Shown one piece after another: positions 1 through 12,487 of a DNA stretch of 64,000 nt (position 1 is its first letter; each line of letters opens with the position of its first letter). The notes below the pieces were generated by a model, which ran no database searches, had not been told where the DNA came from, and was given only the letters and a program-made list of their open reading frames with translations. A program made the position numbers and the translations under genes. Source of the stretch: Thermoguttaceae bacterium (GTDB lineage: Bacteria; Planctomycetota; Planctomycetia; Pirellulales; Thermoguttaceae); assembly GCA_025060325.1 (NCBI GenBank), contig JANXBW010000003.1, positions 1-64,000 on the forward strand. The letters run 5' to 3'.

Positions 1-47
1 TATCCAAACTCAACCCGGATAAGCTCACCAGCGGGAACCTGAAACAT
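1..47 (-). CDS. Possible 5' end of a gene leaving the left edge
   Basis: On the minus strand an ATG at position 47 opens a frame (MFQVPAGELIRVEFG) that stays open to the window edge. A G-rich stretch lies immediately upstream, and the frame is also open back to an in-frame TTG. Only 15 codons are visible, so no family can be assigned. It would be co-directional with the methylase-like gene that ends about 455 bases upstream of it. This could be chance; it is listed because the peptide reads like a normal protein start. Confidence 0.25.
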   Translation of the reverse strand, partial: MFQVPAGELIRVEFG

Positions 48-502
48 CCCCGCCCCCGTTTCCCTCAAGTGACTACCCCGCCTCGCTGGCGGCTCCCGCA
101 GGCGGAAATTTGGGGGCAGGTGCAGGCCCCGCGGAGTTACCATTTCGGCTAACGTAGGACTGAAGCCAGCAGGCAGGGATGACTTTCCACCGCCAGGACC
201 CGGAGAGAGACTCTCAGATTGGCTTGTCTGCCCCTCTGCACCGTTGACTGTCAACGGAGGTGCTGGAGGGAGCCAATATCCCTTTCGGCCAAGGCACGAC
301 TTTACGACCAATTGGTCAACGCGCGTCTGAAAACCCGTGGGTGGGGCGGAGCCCTAAGACCTGTGGACGATCGCCCGTGGCCCGGATATTTTCGGCCAAA
401 ACGAAACTCATCACCCTGGCAACGTGGCGGATCTGGGGGTAAATCACAACGGTGGTTTGCCTTCCTCGGCACAAAAAATGTCAGCCTTACGCGCGACGGC
501 TT
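48..502. other. Intergenic stretch, no gene seen
   Basis: No convincing coding frame is visible on either strand. The stretch contains the near-perfect palindrome at 241-257, listed separately. It follows the stop of the methylase-like gene on the minus strand. A cobalamin-riboswitch-like architecture was looked for and not found. Confidence 0.5.
241..257. repeat. Palindrome CCGTTGAC-T-GTCAACGG
   Basis: Two perfect 8-base arms flank a single central T. The GTTGAC/GTCAAC half-sites recur in inverted pairs in other gaps (for example 25028-25045). It could be an operator or a small hairpin; no function can be assigned from sequence alone. Confidence 0.5.
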
Positions 503-1393
503 TTACTTCTTTTGTCGGTAGGTAATAAAGTCGCCCACGTAAATGAGGTACTCAAACGCCAGCTGGTTGCCCGAAACTTTTTGGGTAATATCCCCGAGCG
601 TGCCGAGGATAACCCGCTCTTTGTCCTTGTAACCTGCATGTTCTACGACTGCTACCGGGGTACTGTCTGGGAGGCTAGTTCGCAATTTTTCGATAAAGCT
701 TTCGAACTCGGCCCGCATCGTAAAAATAGCCATCGGCACCCCAAGGCGTGCTAATTCCGGGATGGTGTCTGTCTTACCGGGCCAGTCATTGGCCGTCAGG
801 ATGACAGATTTGGTCCGTGGACTAATGGTGGGGGACTTGCGCAGGGCGGCATGAGCGGCGTTGAAGGCGCTGACCCCTGGGATAACCACTGGATTAACGT
901 CGGAAAATTCCTCCAATATCCACGCCCATGGGCCGTAAACCAGGGCGTCCCCGTTGTCCAGAATCGCCACTGTTTTTCCTTGAGCAAGCTGTGAGCGCAC
1001 CTGGGCGATAAATTGGCTACGTTGGGCGGTGATTCTTTCAAAAGCTTCTTTTTCTCCCGGGGGTACCTCCTCCGGCTTCATACCGTAGTACCAGAAAAGT
1101 TGCCAGTAGCCCTCGATCACTTGTTTGCCGGCCAGATATTCACGAAGTCGCTCGGCCACACCCGGCGAGACGTAAACGATCTCGGCCTTCTCGATCGTGC
1201 GGGCGGCCCGAATTGTCATCATGTCGGCATCTCCCGGGCCGACCCCTACCAGGTAGAGCGTGCCGGTGCGTGAGGGCTCGGCCAAGCTGGGAGCGCTGAT
1301 TACGCTGACGGTGACTAGCCCAAGGAAACGAACTAGAAATGCCCTCCTTGTAGCGTGGTGATTCCGGGCAGAATGCCGCAAACTATCTTGCAT
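503..1393 (-). CDS. Tat-targeted tetrapyrrole methylase-like protein
   Basis: This 296-residue protein has the fold signature of the SAM-dependent tetrapyrrole (corrin/porphyrin) methylases. Visible motifs are GVGPGD near residue 51, LDNGDALVYGP (the family's GDP..YG region), IPGVSAFNAA, the VVEHAGYKDKERVILGTL strand region and a C-terminal YVGDFI. Before this domain sits an export signal with a twin-arginine motif, TRRAFLV, a hydrophobic stretch and an ASLA-type cleavage region, so the enzyme would be exported folded. The start at 1393 is supported by a GGAGGAGGG ribosome-binding site. Known family members act in the cytoplasm on corrin or sirohaem intermediates, where SAM is available. An exported copy is therefore odd and may bind another ligand. 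The fold assignment is firm; the substrate is unknown. Confidence 0.85.
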   Translation of the reverse strand: MQDSLRHSARNHHATRRAFLVRFLGLVTVSVISAPSLAEPSRTGTLYLVGVGPGDADMMTIRAARTIEKAEIVYVSPGVAERLREYLAGKQVIEGYWQLFWYYGMKPEEVPPGEKEAFERITAQRSQFIAQVRSQLAQGKTVAILDNGDALVYGPWAWILEEFSDVNPVVIPGVSAFNAAHAALRKSPTISPRTKSVILTANDWPGKTDTIPELARLGVPMAIFTMRAEFESFIEKLRTSLPDSTPVAVVEHAGYKDKERVILGTLGDITQKVSGNQLAFEYLIYVGDFITYRQKK

Positions 1394-1656
1394 ATTATCC
1401 CTCCTCCGGCATAAGCGTCAGTAGCAACAAAAGGGCCTGGCGAAATTGGCGATGTCGTACTGCGTGCCTGTGTTTGGCGCTAAAAAAGCTCCTTAGCGTT
1501 TATATCAACAACTTGCCACGCAGGTGTATTTAGTCAGCGTCAAGTCCTGCTAGGCTAGGGGGAGGCGAACGCTTAGGTCCGCGGATCGCAATTCTCACCG
1601 CAAACGGGGCGTGCAGTGAATCGGCATCGGGGCTCGCGGGAGCAGCCGAAGCGTTG
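1394..1656. other. Gap between two minus-strand genes
   Basis: It carries the strong ribosome-binding site of the methylase-like gene at its left end. Around 1476-1500 there is a weak inverted repeat (CGCTAA/TTAGCG) that could act as a terminator for the DUF1559 gene. No gene is seen. Confidence 0.4.
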
Positions 1657-2724
1657 TCAGGGGATGTTTACGGCCTCGCCGCCATTGCGAGATCCGAGGG
1701 CTCGCCACACGTCAAGGTCGACGGTCTGGCTGACGAACCGGACCGAGCCATCGGTAAGGGCCACATTGACACCGCCGGGGTGTCGGCTGCGGGCCATCTG
1801 CCACAAGGCGCGGATGGGTGACCACTTGGCGCAGTCGGGGATATCCGAATTGGGTCCCCACCAGTGGTAGTAAGCGGTATATAGAACAAAGCCATCGACC
1901 CATCGAGCTGTCCGATTTGGCCGAGCGGCAACCGGTTGGCCGTATCGGCTGCACCAAGCGGGATCAAGAGTCGGACCAGCACTGCCGCTACTTGCGCCCA
2001 CGATGACAATATCTTTGTTTTCTTTGGTAAGCACAACACCACCCGAAAGGGACATTTGCGGATCGGGTAGCAGACTTTCCGAAAAGGCGGCAGTATTACT
2101 AGTTCCGTCAGTAACGTCAGCAAACCGGTAAGCCGTTAGCCGGGCGAAAATGCCGTCGGTTTCGAACACGGCCGTACCGTTTTGGTTCGGAGCACCTCGT
2201 CCCCAGCAGGCCATGTAATTGGTTGCCCCAAATTCCGGTTCAACTCGCTGGGCCTTGTCACTGGGACAATAAAAGAAGCTAATCTCCTGCTTGACAGGTT
2301 CCACATTGTCCGGATGGACGCCGTAACCTGGCCCCAGGTATATGCCTGTGTGCCCGTAAAGCGGCACCTCCAGATTAAGCGACTTGTACACGTTGTACTG
2401 CTCCATGTAAGGGGTAAGCATCGCAAGCGCTCCCCACCGGTATTGCCAAGCCGGGATTTGTTCGTAACCGCGGCAGGTCTTTTCCGGTGAGCCAACCGGG
2501 AACTGCCCGTAGACATCATGGAAGTTGTGAAGAGCAAGGACGATTTGCCTGAGGTTATTTGTGCACTTTATTCTTCGGGCGGCTTCTCGGGCGGCTTGGA
2601 CCGCCGGGAGCAAAAGGGCAATGAGCACGCCGATGATGGCGATCACCACCAATAGCTCGACCAGGGTAAAAGCTCGCCTAGGGCGATCCCCGTACTGGCC
2701 AGATGGATTGACGCGTTTACTCAT
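1657..2724 (-). CDS. DUF1559 domain protein with prepilin-type N-terminus
   Basis: This 355-residue protein begins with a type IV pilin/pseudopilin-like leader. A charged segment is followed by [20 protein letters not shown] and then [14 protein letters not shown], the classical prepilin cleavage/methylation motif of planctomycete DUF1559 proteins. The C-terminus has the family's [16 protein letters not shown] motif. The ATG at 2724 is chosen because the leader starts right after it and a GGGAGT site lies upstream; the frame stays open to 2955, but that extra 77-residue part looks non-coding. The family is hugely expanded in planctomycetes and presumed to form secreted pseudopilin-like structures; the exact role is unknown. 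It is isolated, with nearly 1 kb of apparent non-coding DNA upstream. Confidence 0.93.
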
Positions 2725-3685
2725 TGGCTGATACTCCCGTCCGAGAGCGGTTTCCGTGGGAAGCTGAGCCCGATGACTTCGGCCCCTCAGGTGCCGGCCT
2801 AACGCGATGTGGACGTAACCGGATACGAACCACAGGGCTCCCTTCAAGCGCCCATGCGTAGCGAACGATTCGAGCTTACCTGGAAGTGACACGGGTCCCC
2901 GGAGCCGACAGGATTTGTAATACGTTCGCGAAAATCGTGTTACCACCGGCGCCAAAATAATACAGGTTTGCGCAACCGATGCGTAGGTTGTTAGGTTACG
3001 TTTTGCCCGATTTTATTACTCACCGACCGGCTGTCAAGCACCCTGGAGAAATCACCACAAGAAGGCAAGTGACCAAGCTAAGCAATTTGCTTGCCGTGCA
3101 CGCCCAAGATGAGGAGAAAAAGGAGATCATGCAGATGCGGAAAGCCCTACCGGATCCCTCGGGTTGGTGGCCGGCAGAACCTCACGTTTGGAGGAGTAAG
3201 AACTTTGGCTTTATAAACCATCGGGGATCCACGCGGAGAAGGAGCTTCATTGATTGGGCAAGCCCAACCGGTGGTATGCGAAAGCACTGCGCTCTTGGGC
3301 TGGCACAATTTCGGCAGGACAAAAGCCCAGCGTCGACAGCCGGACCGGCTGCTCTTAGCGCTGTCATCTCTTATGGGGATACAAGTCAGGACGTAAGAAA
3401 AAATGCGCTTATCGGCAACACCCTGACCGCGTCTACCCTCCAGCCAGCCCGGACCGGCCAGGTGGTGGGCTTTAAGTTTTTAAACTGGATCTCGTGGGGA
3501 CGATTTAAACCCAGGTTCGCCCGGCTGGGCTCCCCGCGGCAATTCATCTGCGCCTTGGGTAGAAGGCTCGGTCGGCAAGAGTTCTGGTGCCAAAGATCTT
3601 GGCAGTTCTGGCCCAGGGAATATTCTTTCTCGCCGGGTCGCTCGGTTTTGGCAAAACGATCTCGATAACACTTTATCCGGTAGCC
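2725..3685. other. Long intergenic stretch, no credible gene
   Basis: Nearly 1 kb separates the DUF1559 start from the end of the DUF1501 gene. A plus-strand frame at 2979-3668 is open but has no recognisable domain, no clear ribosome-binding site and a composition unlike the real genes here. The promoter of the DUF1559 gene should lie at the left end. Confidence 0.5.
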
Positions 3686-4996
3686 TTACGATGCGCGGCC
3701 GGCACGATATTCCTCTTTTACAAACAAGGGGACTGGCCCAGGTACAGGGCCGAGCACGGGCTCTGCCGGAACGCCAAGCCAATCCTCGAGAAGAGATTTG
3801 TAAACTGCCCGAAAGTCCGTGTGATGAATCAGCCCCCCTTGGTCGAGTTGATAAAGGCTCGGGTGTTTACCCACTAGTCCGCCTTGCACCGCTTTGCCGA
3901 AGACGAATAGGGAGGTCGCTGCACCGTGGTCTGTACCGTGGCGACCGTTTTCGGCGAGGGTCCGCCCGAATTCGGAAAATGTCATCAGCAGGACACGATC
4001 AGCAATGCCCAGCTTTTCGGTGTGGTGAGCAAAACTCGCTATGCCTTGAGCAAGCTCAGTCAACAAAGCATGATGGTTGTCGAGCTGGTTAGCGTGGGTA
4101 TCAAAGCCGCCCGGCTCCGGGCCGCCAAAATCGGTAAAGAAAAATCGGACCCCGACCTCTGCGTCAATGAGCGAGGCGATAAGTTGAAGCCGCCGCTCCA
4201 GTTCAAATCGGGCGGCATCGAGTTGAGGGGCAACTTTCTCTACAGCCGCCTGGACACGTTTCGCCACCCGCTGGGCTTGTGTGGCTGTCTGGCGCAGATG
4301 GCGGAGAAGGTCTTGCGCTTCCGCCGTTAAAGGCGCTGTCCCCTCATCCGGCGGCTCCCCTGAGGAAATTTCCCAATCGCCGGCGGGAAGCGGTTCCCAG
4401 TTGACATTGTTGGCGTCGCGAATTCGTGGGACCACCGCACTTCTCCCCACCAAAGCTTGCGGCAGGGGAATTGTACCCACGAATAATGCATGAACTTCGG
4501 AGGGAAGGGCTTGGTTAAGGATGTCGCATGCCCGTCCGATCCAACCGGTGCGTTCCACTGTGTCGCCGGGCAACGCTGTGTACCAATCACGGATCGCCTG
4601 TTGATGATCTCGCGAGGACTGGGGATAACCTACGCCTTGGAGAATGGCTAGCTGCCCATCCTGGAACAATTCCCGAAGGGGATCCAGCGCCGGGTGAAAG
4701 GCCAAATTGTCGCTAATAGGCCGGGCCTTCTTCGCCACCGAGTTAAGAGTGGGACGAGCCCTGAAGTAAGCGGGATCCTGGTATGGGATCACGGTGTTTA
4801 AAATGTCATTGCCGCCGGTAAGCTGAATAACAATAACCGATCGTCCCTTGGCCCCCTCGACCGGTTGTTTCCCAGCCGGCTGCGTCAACGGAAAGAGGCA
4901 AGCACCGGGAAGCAGGCCGAGAGTGGTCCCGGCTACACTCATCCGGATAAACTTCCGGCGGGAAAGATGTAACCGAAAGCTGGCGTCATCCCTCAT
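3686..4996 (-). CDS. DUF1501 family protein, Tat-exported
   Basis: This 436-residue protein starts with LSRRKFIRMSVAGTTLGLLPG, a twin-arginine signal followed by a hydrophobic core and a Cys (ACLF) that could be lipidated. The mature part shows DUF1501 features: VIVIQLTGGNDILNTVIPY, FHPALDPLRELF, LAILQGVGYPQSSRDH, FGGPEPGGFDTHANQL and LLMTFSEFGRTLAENGRHGTDHGAA. These histidines and acids resemble alkaline-phosphatase/sulfatase-like metal sites, and the family is related to that superfamily. The ATG at 4996 is preferred because AAGGAG sits 12 bases upstream and the Tat signal follows directly; an earlier in-frame start at 5077 would add an unlikely 27-residue leader. It follows the DUF1800 gene on the same strand, the standard planctomycete pair. 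Substrate unknown. Confidence 0.93.
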   Translation of the reverse strand: MRDDASFRLHLSRRKFIRMSVAGTTLGLLPGACLFPLTQPAGKQPVEGAKGRSVIVIQLTGGNDILNTVIPYQDPAYFRARPTLNSVAKKARPISDNLAFHPALDPLRELFQDGQLAILQGVGYPQSSRDHQQAIRDWYTALPGDTVERTGWIGRACDILNQALPSEVHALFVGTIPLPQALVGRSAVVPRIRDANNVNWEPLPAGDWEISSGEPPDEGTAPLTAEAQDLLRHLRQTATQAQRVAKRVQAAVEKVAPQLDAARFELERRLQLIASLIDAEVGVRFFFTDFGGPEPGGFDTHANQLDNHHALLTELAQGIASFAHHTEKLGIADRVLLMTFSEFGRTLAENGRHGTDHGAATSLFVFGKAVQGGLVGKHPSLYQLDQGGLIHHTDFRAVYKSLLEDWLGVPAEPVLGPVPGPVPLFVKEEYRAGRAS

Positions 4997-5192
4997 TGCA
5001 GATGGCTCCTTGCCGGGCCTCGCGTAAACGCACCGTCTATCTGGTATGCCCTTCCCCGACGCGACTGTGGGCTCCATCGATTGCGATTTTTTCGGCTTGC
5101 CCTTTGATCTTCGAAGAAGTCACTTTCGGCTGTTTGCGAGGTTGCCGCCGGGATCAATCGCGCCAAGGGCGTCAGGATTAACCCCTCAGTGA

Positions 5193-6587
5193 CTACGCCA
5201 GTTCGAATTCCGGTTGCTGCACCAACTCCGCCAAGAATACCTTGGCTCCGTCGGCAGGTTGGAAAGGACGTGACGCGCTCAAGCTGTTCCATTTCTGTTG
5301 AAGGGTGCCCATGGTGGTCGAAGGCAGATCGCCTTGGTAAATAAGTTGACTTAAAAAATCGGGAAGCTTGTTTATGCTACCATAGCCGTGCTTTTGAGCG
5401 ACCGCCCACGGGTCCAAAGCCGAGGATACGGCCAGTTGACGAAGAACTTGCTTTCTCCGCAAGAAACTAAGGTGATTGATCCACGCGCGGCCTTCCGGCC
5501 AACCGTCGAAGGTGGGCGGATTGCAAAGGTCCTGCCCTAAGTCGACGAGGTCTTCGCCTAATCTTGCGGTGGGGACGATTTGTCCCAACATCCGCGCAAG
5601 CCCAACGACCGATTCTACGGGGCTTTTGACCCTACTCCGGTAGGCGAGCGTGGAATAGAAGATGTTCGACCGCAAGATCACCCGCACTACCCCCAGGAGG
5701 GACTCGCCTTGAGCCAGACAATCAACAAGCGGCGAGAGAAGTTCTCCGGACGGCGGGTGTTCTTCGCTGATGAAATATCGGAAAAGTTTCCGCACGACAA
5801 ACTCTTGACTTGCCGGATGAGCGGAGATGACGGCCACTAATTCGGGGATGCCAAAATCGCCTTGCCGGCCGAGGATCTTTTTTGGCCGCGGATCGTGTTC
5901 ACTAGCGATAAACCGCAGCCGATTGTTGACGACAAACCAGCCCGTCCACGCCCGAGCGATTTCTTGTAGTTCTGTGGCAGGCAGCCCGTCTGGTGCCAGC
6001 CCGACTTGAGCGGCAAAGATGCGTGCCCACTTTAGGCTGGGCTGCGCCTTTCGATGCTGGGGCGAGCCAGCGGAAAGAAGAAGCGCCGGATGCCCGCAGA
6101 CGGTTGCCAAGACATTTTGCCACGAGCTGAGGCAACTTTCCCGCAGCTGCAAGAGGTAGTCAACAAATAGGGTTGGGTCCCGCAGCCGATCGGCGGAAAT
6201 GGCAAAGTGGCCATGCCAAAATAAAGTCAGTTTTTCTTCCAGGGGAAAGGGACTTTCCACCATCCGCCGCAGCCACCAGGCCCGGATCCCTCCCTGGCCC
6301 TGTCCGCGAGCTGCTTCTCGCAGAAGCGGATCGAATTGCTGGTGAAATTGGGCCAACTTTGGCGGTGGTGTTGTTAGCCGGCTAACGGTCTTTTCCGGTC
6401 CCTCCTCAAGCGCCTGCTGTAACTGGGGCCAACTGCCTGCGAAAGCTGCCCGCCGGAATAGATGTCCTACCTTCCGCAAATCCCATGGGTCGTTGGGCGT
6501 GGGCACAAACGGCTCCCACGCCCAGACCGGATCGACCCGCAGCTGACCGAGGCTTGCGTCCACCTGGTCATTAGCAGAGAGCGTCAT
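5193..6587 (-). CDS. DUF1800 family protein
   Basis: This 464-residue protein has the DUF1800 pattern. An N-terminal DPWDLRKVGHLFRRAAFAGSW resembles the usual HLLRRAGFG motif; then come LTLFWHGHFA (the conserved W.HF motif), FAAQVGLAPDGLPATELQEIARAWTGW, and the C-terminal LVDLGQDLCNPPTFDGWPEGRAWI. The family is almost always encoded next to DUF1501, as here (about 200 bases separate the two genes), and the pair is presumed to work together in the cell envelope. No obvious signal peptide is seen. The sequence just upstream of the ATG (TCTTCCTCCT) is not a Shine-Dalgarno site, so the start is less certain. A GTTGAC element lies about 30 bases further upstream on the coding strand and could be a -35 box. 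Confidence 0.92.
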   Translation of the reverse strand: MTLSANDQVDASLGQLRVDPVWAWEPFVPTPNDPWDLRKVGHLFRRAAFAGSWPQLQQALEEGPEKTVSRLTTPPPKLAQFHQQFDPLLREAARGQGQGGIRAWWLRRMVESPFPLEEKLTLFWHGHFAISADRLRDPTLFVDYLLQLRESCLSSWQNVLATVCGHPALLLSAGSPQHRKAQPSLKWARIFAAQVGLAPDGLPATELQEIARAWTGWFVVNNRLRFIASEHDPRPKKILGRQGDFGIPELVAVISAHPASQEFVVRKLFRYFISEEHPPSGELLSPLVDCLAQGESLLGVVRVILRSNIFYSTLAYRSRVKSPVESVVGLARMLGQIVPTARLGEDLVDLGQDLCNPPTFDGWPEGRAWINHLSFLRRKQVLRQLAVSSALDPWAVAQKHGYGSINKLPDFLSQLIYQGDLPSTTMGTLQQKWNSLSASRPFQPADGAKVFLAELVQQPEFELA

Positions 6588-6748
6588 AGGAGGAAGATCT
6601 CCATGGTACCAAAGTCAACACAGCGTCTGCGCCGGCAGGTGCTTTCCCGCGGATAGAAGCCCCTCAGGGCAAGCTCCAGGGCAGGTCCAAATGACGTCGG
6701 CATATAACCGGAGCCAGCGCAGTTATCGTGCAACTACCTCCGGGAAGG

Positions 6749-8539
6749 CTAATTTTCAGTCCCCGGCAAGGCGACCTCAATTCGGGCTTGGGGCTTGTCC
6801 TCTTGCCGGAGCAGCTCTACGCGGAGCTCGCCCAAAATCGCAACAAGGGCGAAGAGGTTATTTGTTTCTGCCTCGGCTTTTTCCCGGGAGTGACCTCTCT
6901 CCACCATGTTTTGGCGGATAATTGCCTCGCGATTGGTTTTGAGCAGTTTAAGAAGACCTTCCCGATCCGTCTCGAGCACGAAATGACGCCCCGGCAGTCG
7001 AGCGGCGTTTTGATCTTCTTGTTGTAGATAGTCGATGATATCCCGAGCAAGCTGTTCTGTAGATGAAAGGACAAGGTACTCGCCGACAGGGGCCAGCACC
7101 GGACGGAAGTTAAAGCGAACGTCTTTGCGATCTTCCGGGGTTAGCCCGACGGTGGAAAATGCCGCCACGGTGTACCGAACTCCTCGGTATTCCGCGCGAT
7201 CGAGGATCAGACCAGGCAGAGCTTGTTGACCCCGCGTAAAGTTTATGAGGCCCAGGGCCTTCTGCCAGGCCTCCTCGGCCATGGGGACGAACTGCTTCGG
7301 GTCTTTCATCCGGAAGACCAACGCCATGGCAGGTAGGGCAACTGCCGGAACGCCGTAGTCGGGCTGATATTCCTGAGCCGCGACCACTAGCCGAATTTCT
7401 GGGTGAAGATGAGGCAGAACCTCTTCGCTAAAGTGTCGACCGGTGAAGAAAACGCCCATCATGTTCTCGAAGAAGATCAAGCCACTGGTTCGTTCCGGGA
7501 AAAGGACGTCTTTCTGCCGGTAGAACCGGGCCAAGTCGCGATAGAGGCTCACTGCCACAAGACGGCGCGGGACTTCAATGTTTCGGAGACAGCCGCTTTC
7601 ATTCGTCGGCAGAGAGAATGCAGTGGGATGATCGCCACCTGGGAAGGTGCCGTCGGCAACCACATGAAGACCGACCCGGCCGCCGTCGACATTGATGGCA
7701 GCGGCCATCCACGTGGCATTGGAAAGGGCCTCCAAGTTATCGGCCACCATAAGGGCAAGTAGGGGATTGGTCCTCATCGCCCGCTCGATCCGATCGGATC
7801 GTGGGGCTTCCTTAATCAGGCCGATGTTGACAAACGCCCGGACCCAGGCATTTTGAGGCAGGGCGGCCTGAGCCTGTTGATAAGCCGCAACACGCGCCAG
7901 GGAGCCTGCGCCGCCCGTTTCCGCCAAGTCGGCTGCGCTTCGCAAAAGATCCGCCTTGTTTGAAAGCAGGAGCCGTGATCCGACAAGAGCATGGACGTTT
8001 TTGCCACCGTCAAAGGTCCAGCCAGTCCATCCCTTGTATACTCCGGAGGCAACGCGATCCGGATCGCCCGCCTTCTGGGCCTCATCGCGGGCATGTTCAA
8101 GCAACACTTGGTGAAGCTTGCTCAGAAGCTCGGCACTTTTCGTGTCTACCACGATCAATACCTGGTTCCGGGGGAGAAGAGCCGCGGTGATTCGGCCGCC
8201 GAAAAGTTTCCTGACCGCGTCTTTCCAATCGGTGCCGAGACGAAATTCTAGGTATCTTACGATTCCCACAATTTGGGCAAACTGGGGTGATTCGAGAAAT
8301 TGCCTAATTTGCTCGTTTTCGCGAATCCGCCCCTCGAATTCCTTGGACAACAAGCCTTCCACAACCTTAGAGCTGTCTGGGATTTCCAGGACTATCGCGG
8401 CCTCCGCCGGTATCCATTCCGTAGCAGAAGGCAGCTCCTCGCCAGCACCGCAAACATTAGCCGCTGGAAGGATTAGGATTGTGATTAAAGAAGTGAAGAT
8501 GGACCGCTTCACCCGTGCCATCATTGAGACTCTCCTCAT
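6749..8539 (-). CDS. Large exported protein of unknown function
   Basis: This 596-residue protein starts with a signal peptide (positive MMARVKR, then a hydrophobic SLITILILPA segment and cleavage near CGAGEE). The mature region opens with EWIPAEAAIVLEIPDSSKVV, a style seen in planctomycete exported proteins that resemble DUF3352-type repeats. It contains AWVRAFVNIGLIKEA, MALVFRMKDPKQFVPMAEEAW and YLVLSSTEQLARDIIDYL, suggesting two related alpha/beta halves. No catalytic motif is recognised. The gene stands alone with 160 bases before the DUF1800 gene. The start region is unusual: ATG codons at 8539, 8524 and 8521 are in frame, and the first two are each preceded by their own AGGAG because of a 15-base tandem duplication. 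Function unknown. Confidence 0.85.
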   Translation of the reverse strand: MRRVSMMARVKRSIFTSLITILILPAANVCGAGEELPSATEWIPAEAAIVLEIPDSSKVVEGLLSKEFEGRIRENEQIRQFLESPQFAQIVGIVRYLEFRLGTDWKDAVRKLFGGRITAALLPRNQVLIVVDTKSAELLSKLHQVLLEHARDEAQKAGDPDRVASGVYKGWTGWTFDGGKNVHALVGSRLLLSNKADLLRSAADLAETGGAGSLARVAAYQQAQAALPQNAWVRAFVNIGLIKEAPRSDRIERAMRTNPLLALMVADNLEALSNATWMAAAINVDGGRVGLHVVADGTFPGGDHPTAFSLPTNESGCLRNIEVPRRLVAVSLYRDLARFYRQKDVLFPERTSGLIFFENMMGVFFTGRHFSEEVLPHLHPEIRLVVAAQEYQPDYGVPAVALPAMALVFRMKDPKQFVPMAEEAWQKALGLINFTRGQQALPGLILDRAEYRGVRYTVAAFSTVGLTPEDRKDVRFNFRPVLAPVGEYLVLSSTEQLARDIIDYLQQEDQNAARLPGRHFVLETDREGLLKLLKTNREAIIRQNMVERGHSREKAEAETNNLFALVAILGELRVELLRQEDKPQARIEVALPGTEN

Positions 8540-8551
8540 TGAGACTCTCCT
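8522..8551 (-). repeat. Tandem duplication of ribosome-binding site plus start codon
   Basis: The 15-base unit AGGAGAGTCTCAATG (read on the minus strand) occurs twice in perfect tandem. Each copy supplies an AGGAG site, a 7-base spacer and an ATG in the same frame. Translation could begin at either copy, five codons apart, or at the extra ATG at 8521. Confidence 0.85.
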
Positions 8552-9431
8552 CGCAAACTTCTGCGTGGTTAACCGTTGGTTCTAACCGGTGAGTTAGTGT
8601 AGGGCTCGGCCAACTAAGAGATCAATTTGTTTGACCCTGGCCTCCATTCGGCCGGTCGGCTTCCCCGGGGAGACAGCGGACGCCTAAGCCGGTCGTTTCC
8701 GCGAGGGAAGCGCTTCAAGCCGCCTTGCCTCCCGGAGCACCTTCCCCCGATCGCTTTCGCTCACCCGGAGGCTTGGTTCCGTTTTCCGGGTCCCGGTCAT
8801 CAGGGCCGGCGGACCGTCGTGCCAAAACCGTATTCGAAGTTGGGCGGGAAAAATTTGCTGTCAATCGCGAAAAATTGGTTGGAGGCACTGTCGGTGGCCC
8901 TTGGCGGCCGGCGCCACCGAGGAGGTTGGGTGGGTAGCTCGCCCGGAGGCGCCTCGGCAATGCGAATTCAGTTGGGCACTGCGATTTCGGTCTTTCGGCT
9001 TACCCCGAGGGTTTAAGAGGGTGCCCGCGGACAGGCGCTGGCGGTATCCGCTTATGGAGGTCGGACAACGTTCCTGAGTCGCTCATGCCGTGCAGTGAAA
9101 TTCGGTACAAGAGAGGCGGTTTAGGCCTTCGGAACGAGACGAAGTGCCAGAGTAGTTAGAGGGAGCGCCCGAGCGAGTGGGGTACTAGTCAACCAAAAAG
9201 AGGGGACAAGTTGCGAACGGCCTTGAGGAAAAGGGGCCCCGCGCTCCCAAGCGGCTTTGGCATTCCCGCCGGCCTTCGTCTGCTTGGCGGGTGTGAACGT
9301 TTAACGATCGTGTAAGTATTGCCTTGATACCTCCCCCTTCGTGACCGTAATTTGGTTATGAGAGCTTCCTCTTTGAGCGCCACGTGGGGGAGTTAGGGCT
9401 AGGTGGAAGTCCGCGGGGGAGGAGATTCTCG
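8552..9431. other. Long divergent intergenic stretch
   Basis: About 880 bases lie between the divergent exported-protein gene (minus) and the response-regulator gene (plus). No credible coding frame is seen. It must hold promoters for both genes. GC-rich inverted repeats are present, but none is strong enough to name a known RNA. A GTCAAC site occurs near 9188. Confidence 0.45.
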
Positions 9432-10379
9432 ATGCCGACGGTTCTTGTTGTCGATGATTCGCTTACTGATCGTCGTTTGATATGCGATCTTTTGCGCCGG
9501 CAGTCCGACTGGAAGATTGAACAGGCGGCAAGCGGGGTAGAGGCTCTTGCCAGGATCCAGCAGAGTAAGCCGGACGTCCTTGTCACTGACCTCCAGATGC
9601 CCGAGATGGACGGGCTTGAGTTACTTAATGCGATTCGTCAGCGGGAGCTGGATGTTCCGGTCATTTTAATTACGGCATATGGCAGCGAAGCCTTGGCAGC
9701 GGAGGCACTCCGGCGTGGCGCGGCAAGCTACGTACCGAAGACCCAGGTGGCCTTCAAACTTTTGGACACTATGGAGGAGGTACTTGCCCGAGCCAAGGCT
9801 GGCCGAATTCAGCAGCGGCTCCTCCAGTGTCTCAACCGGTGTGAGTTTACATTCCTCCTGGAAAATGACCCCACGCTTTTTGACCCACTGATTGATCTGG
9901 TCCAGCAAATGGTAGCGGCTGTCCACCTCTGCGGATTTAACGGTCGGCTGCAGATAGGTGTTGCTTTGAAAGAAGCTTTGCGTAACGCACTATACCATGG
10001 CAATTTGGAGATCGGCTCCCACCTGAAAGTGCGCCCATGGGATAAACTTTTCCAGGATAAGGACTACAGTTTTCTCAACGAGCGGCGGCAGCAGGAGCCG
10101 TATTGTCGACGAAAGATCTATGTGGACGTTCGGATTACGCCGGAGGAGGCCCGATTTGTGGTCCGCGATGAGGGCCCGGGCTTCAACGTGGCTGCAATCC
10201 CGCGGCCAACAGATCCCTGGACCACAGATTGGGAGGGGGGTCGGGGTCTTGCACTGATGTATTCCTTTATGGACGAAGTCCGCTTCAACGAAAAAGGTAA
10301 CGAAGTGACAATGATCAAGCGGAAGGAAACTTGGGGCACCGTCAAGGAGGGGACAATCGCGGCCGCTGGGACAGGTTGA
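9432..10379 (+). CDS. Response regulator fused to RsbW-like ATPase domain
   Basis: This 315-residue protein has two parts. Residues 1-120 form a receiver domain: acidic pair D8-D9, phospho-acceptor D53 in VTDLQMPEMDG, T81 and K103. Residues 130-300 form a GHKL/HATPase domain like the serine kinases of the RsbW/SpoIIAB type. Its N-box is ALKEALRNALYHGN, its G1 box is DEGPGF and its G2 box is GGRGLALM. No dimerisation/phosphotransfer histidine domain is seen, so it is not a classical sensor kinase. Such fusions are thought to let phosphorylation control an anti-sigma or partner-switching kinase. The ATG at 9432 is chosen because MPTVLVVDDS begins the receiver fold and GGAGGAG lies 8 bases upstream. 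A sigma factor gene follows, which fits a regulatory module. Confidence 0.92.
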   Translation: MPTVLVVDDSLTDRRLICDLLRRQSDWKIEQAASGVEALARIQQSKPDVLVTDLQMPEMDGLELLNAIRQRELDVPVILITAYGSEALAAEALRRGAASYVPKTQVAFKLLDTMEEVLARAKAGRIQQRLLQCLNRCEFTFLLENDPTLFDPLIDLVQQMVAAVHLCGFNGRLQIGVALKEALRNALYHGNLEIGSHLKVRPWDKLFQDKDYSFLNERRQQEPYCRRKIYVDVRITPEEARFVVRDEGPGFNVAAIPRPTDPWTTDWEGGRGLALMYSFMDEVRFNEKGNEVTMIKRKETWGTVKEGTIAAAGTG

Positions 10380-10501
10380 CGATACCGCTTGGAATCATCG
10401 TAAGTCAGTCCACACGGCGCAAGGGAGCTAGAGGTAAGTCGAAAAATTCGCTGAGACCTGGTACAGTATGGCACCTGATCGACCACCAGGCCGATTAACA
10501 C

Positions 10502-11152
10502 ATGGCCACCGGTTCTTCCGCGGAAAAACTCCTTGTCGAAAGTGTTAGGTGCGGTGATGAGGAGGCGTGGCAAAAACTCATCGCACATTTCGAGGGACGA
10601 CTCTTGGCTTTTTTCCGTCCTCGGGTTCGTGATCGATCGATCGCGGAGGACTTGGTTCAGGAGACTTTTCTGGGACTGTTGACCAGTCTTGGGCATTTCG
10701 ATGCCGACAGGCCGCTTGAGCAATACCTCTTTTCGATTGCGGCACACAAGCTGACCGATTATCTTCGCCGGGTGCGAAGCCGGCCTGATTTGCTCCCCGC
10801 GGATCATGCCCCGCAAGGAACCTTGGCTGATTTTGCCGGCCGGGATCGCCGCGCAAGTAGCATCTTTCAGAGTCGTGAACGCAAAAGTTGGGAGGAAAAG
10901 GTCCTTGTTCAGGCCCTTAAAGGACTTGTTGACTATTATAAGACGAAGGGCTACTGGCAGAAGCTTTCCTGCGTCGAATTGTTGATGCTAAGAGGCTGGC
11001 CCAATAAACGCGTTGCAGAGGCCCTGGGCATAAGCGAGCAAGCGGTGGCGAATATCAAGTTCGAGTTTATCGAGAAACTCCGCGAGGCCGTGCGAGCCGT
11101 GGGCGTCTGTCCGGAGCTTTTCCCGGAATTAATGTTGGGGCAAAATCCGTAG
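10502..11152 (+). CDS. ECF-type RNA polymerase sigma factor
   Basis: This 216-residue protein is a sigma-70 family factor of the extracytoplasmic-function type. Region 2 is seen in AWQKLIAHFEGRLLAFF and IAEDLVQETFLGLL, then LEQYLFSIAAHKLTDYLRR. Region 4 is a helix-turn-helix, ELLMLRGWPNKRVAEALGI followed by SEQAVANIKFEFIEKL. The linker between regions 2 and 4 is longer than usual (about 60 residues), a trait of some planctomycete ECF groups. It directs RNA polymerase to specific promoters, which cannot be identified here. It lies 122 bases after the receiver/ATPase protein and before a small acidic protein that may be its anti-sigma partner. Confidence 0.92.
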   Translation: MATGSSAEKLLVESVRCGDEEAWQKLIAHFEGRLLAFFRPRVRDRSIAEDLVQETFLGLLTSLGHFDADRPLEQYLFSIAAHKLTDYLRRVRSRPDLLPADHAPQGTLADFAGRDRRASSIFQSRERKSWEEKVLVQALKGLVDYYKTKGYWQKLSCVELLMLRGWPNKRVAEALGISEQAVANIKFEFIEKLREAVRAVGVCPELFPELMLGQNP

Positions 11153-11268
11153 CTTCGTTTTCGCGAAAAAGTTTGCTTCATTTGTAGCCGGCTACCTGGG
11201 TCACACCATTCGCCACAAATTTTGCCAAGGCCGCTTCGGCCGGAGCTTTTTCGCAAAGCTAGCGCGCT

Positions 11269-11286
11269 GCCATGTGTTGACATGGC
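11269..11286. repeat. Inverted repeat GCCATGT-GTTG-ACATGGC
   Basis: Seven-base perfect arms flank a 4-base centre in the gap between the sigma-factor gene and the small putative anti-sigma gene. It overlaps a TTGACA-like element. It could be an operator or small hairpin controlling the downstream gene. Confidence 0.5.
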
Positions 11287-11387
11287 CCAATCATTCACGC
11301 GTGGGATGAGAAAAGCTCAGTGATCGAGTTTGCTTGGCACTCCAAGGTGAAAACTTGCTGTCGGGTGTGGACAAAGGCTTTTTGCCG

Positions 11388-11816
11388 ATGAATTATCAAC
11401 GGGAAGTAACCCGGGAAGAGTGGGAGGCTTATCTGGACGAAGCGCTTCCGCCGGATGAGATGGCGGAGCTTGAGCAACGTTTACGCGAGGATCCGGCAGC
11501 CCGAGAGGTAGTGGCGGACCTTATTTCGCTGCGGGACGCAGGGATTCACACCCTGGGGGCTGTATGGCGCCGCCATCGCCTCAGCTGCCCGTCGCGGGAA
11601 GAGCTAGGGGAATTTTTGCTGGGCATTTTGGAGGAGGAAATGGCCCAATTCGTACACTATCATGTGAAAGTTGTGGGCTGCCGCTTCTGCCAGGCTAATC
11701 TAGAGGACCTGCAGGGAAAGGAGACGCAGGATCCACAAGAAGTCCTGGCCCGCCGCAAGCGATATTTCCAGTCGAGCACGATTTTGCTCGACCGAAACAG
11801 GGGGAGCGGAACTTAG
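11388..11816 (+). CDS. Small putative anti-sigma protein
   Basis: This 142-residue acidic protein begins MNYQREVTREEWEAYLDEAL, followed by DEMAELEQRLREDPAAREVV. This is the 'embrace the next residues and count layers' helix pattern found at the N-terminus of many anti-sigma factors (..LDGELPPEEAAALEAHLAADPALR.. type). Later it has FVHYHVKVVGCRFCQANLED, where a His and two Cys (C..C spacing of two) could bind zinc, although this is not the standard HxxxCxxC spacing. No transmembrane segment is visible. The position directly after the sigma gene supports a sigma-regulating role by inference. The ATG at 11388 is preferred over an in-frame TTG at 11334, because the conserved-looking part begins there. 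Confidence 0.7.
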   Translation: MNYQREVTREEWEAYLDEALPPDEMAELEQRLREDPAAREVVADLISLRDAGIHTLGAVWRRHRLSCPSREELGEFLLGILEEEMAQFVHYHVKVVGCRFCQANLEDLQGKETQDPQEVLARRKRYFQSSTILLDRNRGSGT

Positions 11817-11938
11817 GGAACCCCAGAGACCGGTAAGCTTCTGTTTTGGATTCCAAGATTGTAAATCGCCTCCGGGCATAGCGATTTTCGGAGAGCAACT
11901 AAGCCCAAGTTGGTGGTGAATTTCTCAGGACTTCGGCG

Positions 11939-12487
11939 ATGGGTGTGGTTTCTCCGCCCCAACCGGTGCTTCTCCTGCTGGCTGCTTTCAGCCGACATCG
12001 GGAGGCACTTGAGTGGGCCAAGGCCAAGGCAAGCGGTGCATGGGGACAACTAGCGCTGGAAAGCCCGCTTTTTGAGTTCCGGGAGACCGATTATTACGAG
12101 CCGACGATGGGACCGGGTTTGCTTAAAAAGTTTTTTGCTTTTGGGGAACTTGTGGACCCGGGCCGATTGGCCGACCTGAAAATTCAAACCAATGGCTGGG
12201 AGCGCGAGTACGCGGAGCTTGGGCTTCATCCGGAAGTGCGTCCACTTAATTTGGACCCGGGCTACATCGCCCTCGGTAAGCTGGTACTTGCGTCCACAAA
12301 GGATTTTTCCCACCGCATTTACTTGGGGCGAGGAATCTATGCGGAAGTGACGCTCTGTTACCGCAAGGGGAACTGGGAAGCTTTGCCGTGGACATTTGCC
12401 GACTATCGCCGGGCGGATTATCAGGAATTCTTTTCCCAGTGCCGTGAGTACCTTCACCGTCAGCTGAGGGAGGCAGGCCGCTTGTGA
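11939..12487 (+). CDS. DUF4416 family protein
   Basis: This 182-residue cytoplasmic protein matches the DUF4416 family: PPQPVLLLLAAFSRHREALE, ESPLFEFRETDYYEPTMGPGL, FFAFGELVDPGRLADLKIQTN, RPLNLDPGYIALGKLVLAST, FSHRIYLGRGIYAEVTLCYR and WTFADYRRADYQEFF. The biochemical role of the family is unknown. Its stop codon overlaps the GTG start of the WecA-like gene (GTGA), so the two are translationally coupled and probably co-transcribed. The ATG at 11939 has a weak AGGA upstream. Confidence 0.88.
   Translation: MGVVSPPQPVLLLLAAFSRHREALEWAKAKASGAWGQLALESPLFEFRETDYYEPTMGPGLLKKFFAFGELVDPGRLADLKIQTNGWEREYAELGLHPEVRPLNLDPGYIALGKLVLASTKDFSHRIYLGRGIYAEVTLCYRKGNWEALPWTFADYRRADYQEFFSQCREYLHRQLREAGRL

Follow-up and report, generated by a model that had tools for sequence, protein, structure and literature searches.

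The window analysed here is a 64,000-nucleotide stretch of DNA from a Thermoguttaceae bacterium (contig JANXBW010000003.1). Near its beginning, positions 503..1393 of the reverse strand hold an open reading frame (ORF) with an ATG start and a TAA stop, which encodes a predicted exported tetrapyrrole-methylase-like protein of 296 amino acids plus stop; the assignment is based on the ORF, a PF00590 match and an AlphaFold2 model. A sequence-only reading of this DNA had described a tetrapyrrole-methylase fold behind a Tat export signal, and the motifs that it quoted were all located in this ORF, namely TRRAFLV, GVGPGD (residues 50-55), LDNGDALVYGP (145-155), IPGVSAFNAA (171-180) and YVGDFI (285-290). 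The strong ribosome-binding site claimed for the gene is also present, as the Shine-Dalgarno sequence GGAGGAGGG positioned 5 nt 5' of the ATG (1399..1407, reverse strand).

The N-terminus of the protein, MQDSLRHSARNHHATRRAFLVRFLGLVTVSVISAPSLAEP, contains an RR motif and a hydrophobic stretch. As delimited by eye and by a crude rule, the signal peptide would comprise residues 1-38 (1280..1393, reverse strand), with the Tat-like TRRAFLV at residues 15-21 and a putative cleavage site, judged by eye, between SLA and EP. The Tat-like signal proposed earlier is therefore recognizable, and the window protein is a candidate Tat substrate, its RR motif being accompanied by a hydrophobic region that passes the crude rule. 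From the RR to the GVGPGD motif, the sole in-frame ATG, GTG or TTG codon is a TTG at residue 37, and no Shine-Dalgarno-like sequence was observed upstream of it.

The TP_methylase domain (PF00590, profile match) covers residues 45-269 (587..1261, reverse strand). Residues 95-104, GYWQLFWYYG (1082..1111, reverse strand), belong to the GYWxLFxYYG region, an insert of the exported family relative to CobM that is aligned with a gap in 19/19 CobM-like sequences compared. The LDNGDALVYGP loop (929..961, reverse strand) keeps the SAM-site motif GD(P/A)xxYG, with P155 where SUMT has its arginine. The upstream neighbour of the gene encodes a DUF1559/N_methyl (pseudopilin-like) protein (1657..2955, reverse strand; Pfam). 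DUF1501 and DUF1800 genes, also identified by Pfam, stand side by side at 3689-5077 and 5196-6587 of the same strand.

Fold, family assignment and cofactor site

The window protein matches PF00590 with 134.5 bits, compared with a gathering score of 27.8 (E = 6.7e-39). The AlphaFold2 model of residues 40-296, calculated with a 63-sequence alignment, has a pLDDT of 95.1 and a pTM of 0.90. Among solved structures it comes nearest to CbiF (1cbf; Z 23.8, 2.1 Å over 227 residues), and its best structural matches are SAM-dependent enzymes. Both the profile and the predicted fold place the protein in the TP_methylase superfamily (PF00590), in line with the fold assigned from the motifs.

The best NCBIfam equivalog is TIGR01465 (CobM/CbiF), for which the protein scores 104.2 bits, below the cut-off of 259.65. 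An assignment as CobM was dropped because of this score and because of residue differences. The glutamate present in 19/19 CobM-like sequences is replaced by tryptophan (W158) in 18/18 planctomycete members and in 56 of the 69 family domains; we infer that glutamate at this place may be a CobM-defining residue. The arginine that follows the GDPxxFG loop in SUMT (CobA/NirE/CysG; R111 in NirE) is not kept, and its place is occupied by proline in the window protein (P155) and in 18/18 planctomycete members, with the correspondence between NirE and window residues drawn by hand from motif spacing. Borosin-like peptide methylation, raised by the fold and the YY-rich insert, is disfavoured, as the structural match (Z ~17, 16% identity) is weaker than that to CbiF.

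A whole-genome search of the window genome (95.6% complete) returned three PF00590 matches. One is a long ORF on contig C14 (L001) that by similarity resembles a SUMT fusion, another is a 414-aa ORF on contig C6 (L188, 4975-6216) matching PF00590 and a PCMT-like methyltransferase, and the third is the gene at 503-1393. Since the corrin pathway needs several methylases, a full corrin set is not evident among these three matches, and the tetrapyrrole methylase set of this genome looks incomplete.

Textbooks describe tetrapyrrole methylases as SAM-using enzymes of the cytoplasm. The SAM/SAH contacts of NirE described in PMC4731766 include D105, I108, T133 and M186, and R111 is proposed there as the base. 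Judged by hand from motif spacing, D105, I108, T133, M186 and R111 correspond to D149, V152, S175, M226 and P155 of the window protein. Whether the SAM pocket is kept, a point left to be checked by the sequence-only reading, has a divided answer. G148 and G287 are invariant in the family (69/69 domains), and A253, G254 and D149 are retained in 68, 66 and 61 of the 69 domains, respectively; by comparison, P53 (50/69), S175 (50/69), D55 (45/69) and M226 (35/69) have partly decayed. Each of the listed pocket residues is kept in at least 16 of the 18 planctomycete members, M226 being kept in 16. These patterns suggest that selection maintains most of the SAM pocket, with planctomycetes the stricter group, and that the substrate side differs. 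A retained SAM pocket would fit catalysis as well as ligand binding.

Distribution and export signals

Within the taxonomic family of the window, the gene was detected in 14 of 101 genomes, its own included (E <= 1e-12). Matches below E 1e-50 occur in 13 of the 296 genomes of the order, and the eight other genomes listed with matches at E <= 1e-12 score as general methylases. When 294 genomes were drawn from the phylum, a strong match was obtained only in the window's own genome and in G167, the others being at 1e-15 or weaker. Among the 80 loci listed from a scan of genome contigs, L076 (MAG bacterium HOT.CON.50), which comes from outside the planctomycetes, was the sole clear family member. 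In the phylum of L076, the family is found in four of nine genomes at scores of at least 160 bits, and two more genomes, at 121-130 bits, score as ordinary CobM proteins do. In Desulfobacterota it is found in 36 of 345 genomes (E <= 1e-42). One scan for viral homologues gave 179 pattern matches, none of them a relative. The 325 plasmid records were all below 60% identity, and the matches listed were general corrin/sirohaem methylases or unannotated.

A FastTree tree built from 145 domains unites the 69 family domains in a single group (0.90) beside CobM-like sequences, a clade that is not independent of the selection of the tree sequences by profile score. The 18 planctomycete members are nested among Desulfobacterota members in this tree. 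IQ-TREE, applied to 91 rows, recovered the same family group with weak support (64% SH-aLRT). Together, the trees place the exported family beside CobM/CbiF with modest support. Read from sequence, the fold, the signals and the grouping suggest that the window protein represents the planctomycete lineage of a family that is extracytoplasmic and akin to methyltransferases of the CobM/CbiF type. Among the papers listed by a literature search, at the level of titles and the beginnings of abstracts, there was no description of an exported tetrapyrrole methylase.

Export signals were scored with a crude rule, a hydrophobic 11-mer with a preceding K/R. The rule is satisfied by 58 of 64 family ORFs, the window protein included: 36/40 in Desulfobacterota, 6/6 in the phylum of L076 and 16/18 in planctomycetes, whose genomes had been singled out earlier as the place to look for signal-bearing orthologues. 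Three ORFs that fail the rule (L168, L170 and L235|13) are signal-like by eye, which brings the total to 61/64. Orthologues that lack a signal had been named as evidence that would speak against export; counting the three signals judged by eye, they amount to just three of the 64 ORFs (L255, L256 and L257, all from Desulfobacterota). L255 and L256 adjoin an FmdE-type gene that itself starts without a signal. The general homologue set contained 85 ORFs (76 distinct), and the comparison covered 79 of them, all but 6 fusions whose core lies past residue 120; of these 79, none has a signal by the crude rule (0/79), 13 having been tested and 66 being decided by core start, because a core that begins before residue 15 leaves no room for a signal.

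A loose RR pattern is present in 6/64 family ORFs (the window protein, L156, L228, L232, L242 and L248), and among the 18 planctomycete ORFs it is restricted to the window protein and L156 from the same genus. L183 and L184, both from the phylum of L076, carry a lipobox. The orthologue in the single-contig genome G167 (L005; 55-59% identical) starts with MKRPLTILLWVCWIGWSWSVFAELP, a Sec-like signal. As predicted from these N-termini, the conserved trait is export and not Tat, with orthologue signals that are mostly Sec-like or lipoprotein-like. The earlier claim of a Tat-like export signal holds for the window protein; across the family it is export that is kept, and the Tat motif is not conserved. 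Export of the tetrapyrrole-methylase fold appears to be real as far as can be told from sequence alone, and to extend beyond the genus and phylum of the window.

Genomic neighbourhoods

The neighbours of orthologues, which the sequence-only reading had asked to be noted, were recorded at 36 Desulfobacterota loci. Each locus represents a different genome, and they were chosen, mostly as the best-scoring, among 65 listed match places. The controls comprised 16 arbitrarily placed stretches of 13.5 kb from 8 of these 36 genomes, with all genes counted. A TonB-dependent receptor lies within five genes in 32/36 Desulfobacterota loci and 0/16 controls. It does so too in 6/6 loci of the L076 phylum. 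The search profile contained members from six loci of that phylum already seen near TonB receptors or DUF4198. The receptor gene is the immediate same-strand neighbour in 21/36 Desulfobacterota loci and in 5/6 loci of the L076 phylum. Genes were counted as receptors when BLAST linked them to a single receptor confirmed by Pfam (L076), so that divergent receptors may escape in loci and controls alike; Pfam identified a plug domain in four of four further receptor genes.

Other gene families recur within the same distance. DUF4198, detected by HMM, was found in 17/36 Desulfobacterota loci, 5/6 loci of the L076 phylum and 0/16 controls. The corresponding counts are 16/36, 4/6 and 0/16 for APC permeases, 11/36, 3/6 and 0/16 for NikL-like proteins, and 5/36, 1/6 and 0/16 for one FmdE cluster. 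PBP-like proteins lie within five genes in 4/36 Desulfobacterota loci (controls 0/16), and ExbB-like and ExbD-like clusters were each counted at 6/36 (controls 0/16). Pfam confirmed examples of DUF4198, CbiQ, FmdE, AA_permease, ExbD, TonB_C and receptor neighbours; for the NikL-like proteins, the only Pfam match was CarboxypepD_reg, with DUF4198 matching weakly. Natural fusions were also identified, joining the methylase domain to DUF4198 (DUF4198-TPM, L224), to a second methylase domain (TPM-TPM, L225) and to Oxidored_molyb (Oxidored_molyb-TPM, L252 and L254, by Pfam). An Oxidored_molyb-like domain ahead of the methylase domain, with a signal-like N-terminus, is seen in L247, L250-L254, L258 and L259, those other than L252 and L254 being assigned by similar N-termini and length. 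At L234, a signal-bearing nucleoside-hydrolase and FmdE protein (4753-6240) adjoins the exported methylase; L243 has a similar nucleoside-hydrolase ORF with no FmdE match.

The planctomycete loci present a different picture; the controls all come from Desulfobacterota. No TonB receptor cluster lies within five genes in any of the 18 loci (0/18), the window included, and TonB_dep_Rec has no match in the window's own genome, compared with matches in 3 of 14 control genomes. DUF4198 is found within five genes at 3/18 loci and is absent from that range at the other 15, the window among them. At L164, a 5.4-kb contig, DUF4198 precedes the gene on the same strand, and the opposite strand carries CbiQ, an ABC ATPase and the end of a CbiM. 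In the window genome, the genes for DUF4198 (G000:C22:80606-81232), CbiM and a NikL-like protein are consecutive. Across the window's taxonomic family, with kinship ignored, DUF4198 scores over the cut-off in 12/14 genomes with the gene vs 14/87 without it (p 5e-7), CbiM shows a weak association (12/14 vs 44/87, p 0.02), and DUF4198 and CbiM lie less than 2 kb apart on one contig, by the listed match positions, in 10/14 vs 7/87 (p 8e-7).

A secreted DUF4198 protein from Ideonella binds nickel with a Kd of 18 nM and has its N-terminal histidine among the ligands, and DUF4198 genes adjoin TonB receptors and NikR, according to PMC12537917. An N-terminal histidine after the signal occurs in 17 of our 25 DUF4198 hits by a strict pattern and in 24 of 25 by eye; in the remaining one, L161, the histidine lies further inside the called ORF. 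PMC545781 puts forward NikK and NikL as periplasmic components of nickel transporters. NikR boxes, searched with the consensus from that paper, were not enriched, with 2 in 426 kb of Desulfobacterota loci vs ~4 in shuffles. No riboswitch was detected in 59 fetched loci (L034 left out) or in positions 1-12000 of the window, the only matches at the Rfam gathering score in the loci being tRNAs and the window positions giving none. Taken together, the neighbourhoods point to a genomic link of the exported family with TonB-dependent receptors, the DUF4198 family and Ni/Co ECF transporters, which is strong in Desulfobacterota and the phylum of L076 and indirect in planctomycetes. It is this link of an exported methylase fold to TonB, DUF4198 and Ni/Co transport that is new here.

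Possible roles and related systems

We propose that the exported protein binds a ligand outside the cytoplasm as one component of an acquisition route of the Ni/Co type, a joint reading to which we give about an even chance. The two-lobed cleft would bind a small metal-bearing ligand, such as a nickel/cobalt tetrapyrrole or corrinoid, or another chelate. In Desulfobacterota, the outer-membrane receptor would deliver this ligand to the exported protein. The ligand or its metal might next be handed to DUF4198 and from there reach a transporter in the inner membrane. For the window organism, which showed no TonB receptor match, the recipient of this step would be the DUF4198-CbiM transporter, whose genes lie elsewhere in its genome. 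As no SAM is expected beyond the cytoplasm, the protein is most likely a binding or handling protein rather than a methyltransferase. The nature of the ligand, the metal and any catalysis we infer; binding of a porphyrin or corrin is possible. A bolder version, to which we attach rather little weight, holds that this is a hitherto unrecognised family, that it catches metal-loaded tetrapyrroles (for instance F430-like or corrinoid) for TonB- and ECF-linked Ni/Co uptake, that the metal is handed to the His-site protein DUF4198, and that extracytoplasmic use of SAM may even occur in some of its members. Recruitment to a periplasmic role, suggested earlier for this protein, is plausible. If true, a conserved exported branch, linked to receptors and to a nickel-binding partner, would show that a fold from the B12 pathway had found a new use in catching metals or cofactors on the outer side of the cell membrane, and would suggest a function for a gene that fails to qualify for its best NCBIfam match, a precorrin methyltransferase. 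It also raises a directly testable question, whether the exported family binds tetrapyrroles, metals or SAM in the periplasm.

Alternatively, the protein could be an active SAM-dependent methyltransferase outside the cytoplasm, which would modify an incoming metallophore or tetrapyrrole with SAM carried through Tat or present in the periplasm. Retention of the cofactor-site residues G148, D149, A253, G254 and G287 in 61-69 of 69 domains and the SAM-dependent enzymes among the best structural matches favour such an activity, and a Tat signal could carry a cofactor-loaded protein out. However, the Sec-like or lipoprotein-like signals of most orthologues imply that these are probably exported unfolded and without SAM, and P53, D55, S175 and M226 have decayed in part of the family, planctomycetes keeping them in 16-18 of 18 members. 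Moreover, we know of no periplasmic SAM supply, and we regard this activity as rather unlikely.

A lineage-specific planctomycete role with DUF1559 pseudopilin-like proteins, unrelated to metal uptake, is in our view quite unlikely. A DUF1559-type gene does occur within five genes at 9/18 planctomycete loci and adjacent on the same strand at 7/18, as raw counts, and the window genome offers no TonB receptor match. Such genes are very abundant in planctomycetes, however, and FastTree places the planctomycete members of the family within a set of TonB-linked ones; they also co-occur with DUF4198-CbiM.

The sequence-only reading had also considered a membrane-anchored cytoplasmic enzyme, here a methyltransferase of the corrin type whose N-terminal helix stays uncleaved and ties it to the membrane. 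In favour, the SAM motifs are retained and some cleavage sites are unclear by eye, yet positive charge ahead of the hydrophobic stretch predicts, by an established rule, that the domain lies outside. Signal types also vary among members (Sec-like, Tat-like, lipobox), and the methylase domain of L224 is fused behind DUF4198, a family reported as secreted in PMC12537917. We consider this arrangement very unlikely because of the mixed signal types, the leading positive charge and the extracytoplasmic partners (TonB receptor, DUF4198). Finally, an ordinary CobM/CbiF with a mis-annotated start and an artefactual signal is highly improbable and was rejected: CobM/CbiF are the closest solved relatives, but the strong ribosome-binding site stands only ahead of the signal and not at the internal TTG, orthologues share the signal, which upholds the start against the doubt raised with the first reading, the TIGR01465 score is well under its cut-off, and a full corrin methylase set is not evident from the three PF00590 matches.

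A ligand-binding role in metal acquisition can be set beside several known systems. Like the exported family, NikK/NikL and DUF4198, periplasmic parts of nickel systems, are secreted, and DUF4198 and NikL-like genes lie beside many family members, with one DUF4198 fusion; these proteins have other folds, DUF4198 being a beta-sandwich with an N-terminal histidine site, and the passages of PMC545781 and PMC12537917 at hand mention no methylase-like part. The precorrin-4 C11-methyltransferases CobM/CbiF (TIGR01465; 1cbf, 3ndc, 4e16) share the fold and the GxGPGD, GDxxxYG and PGxS motifs and are the nearest group in the tree, whereas the exported family falls below the equivalog cut-off, is predicted to be exported, and has the GYWxLFxYYG insert and W158 in place of glutamate. 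Borosin N-methyltransferases (OphMA, 5n0s), whose substrate is their own peptide, show that the TP-methylase fold can function outside tetrapyrrole synthesis, although they are only 16% identical to the window protein (Z ~17). The periplasmic cobaltochelatase CbiK(P) of Desulfovibrio vulgaris is a chelatase without the methylase fold, and we claim no homology to it; like the exported family, it places the fold of a tetrapyrrole-pathway enzyme outside the cytoplasm, where, reportedly, going by the title of Lobo et al. 2017, it became a haem-binding protein.
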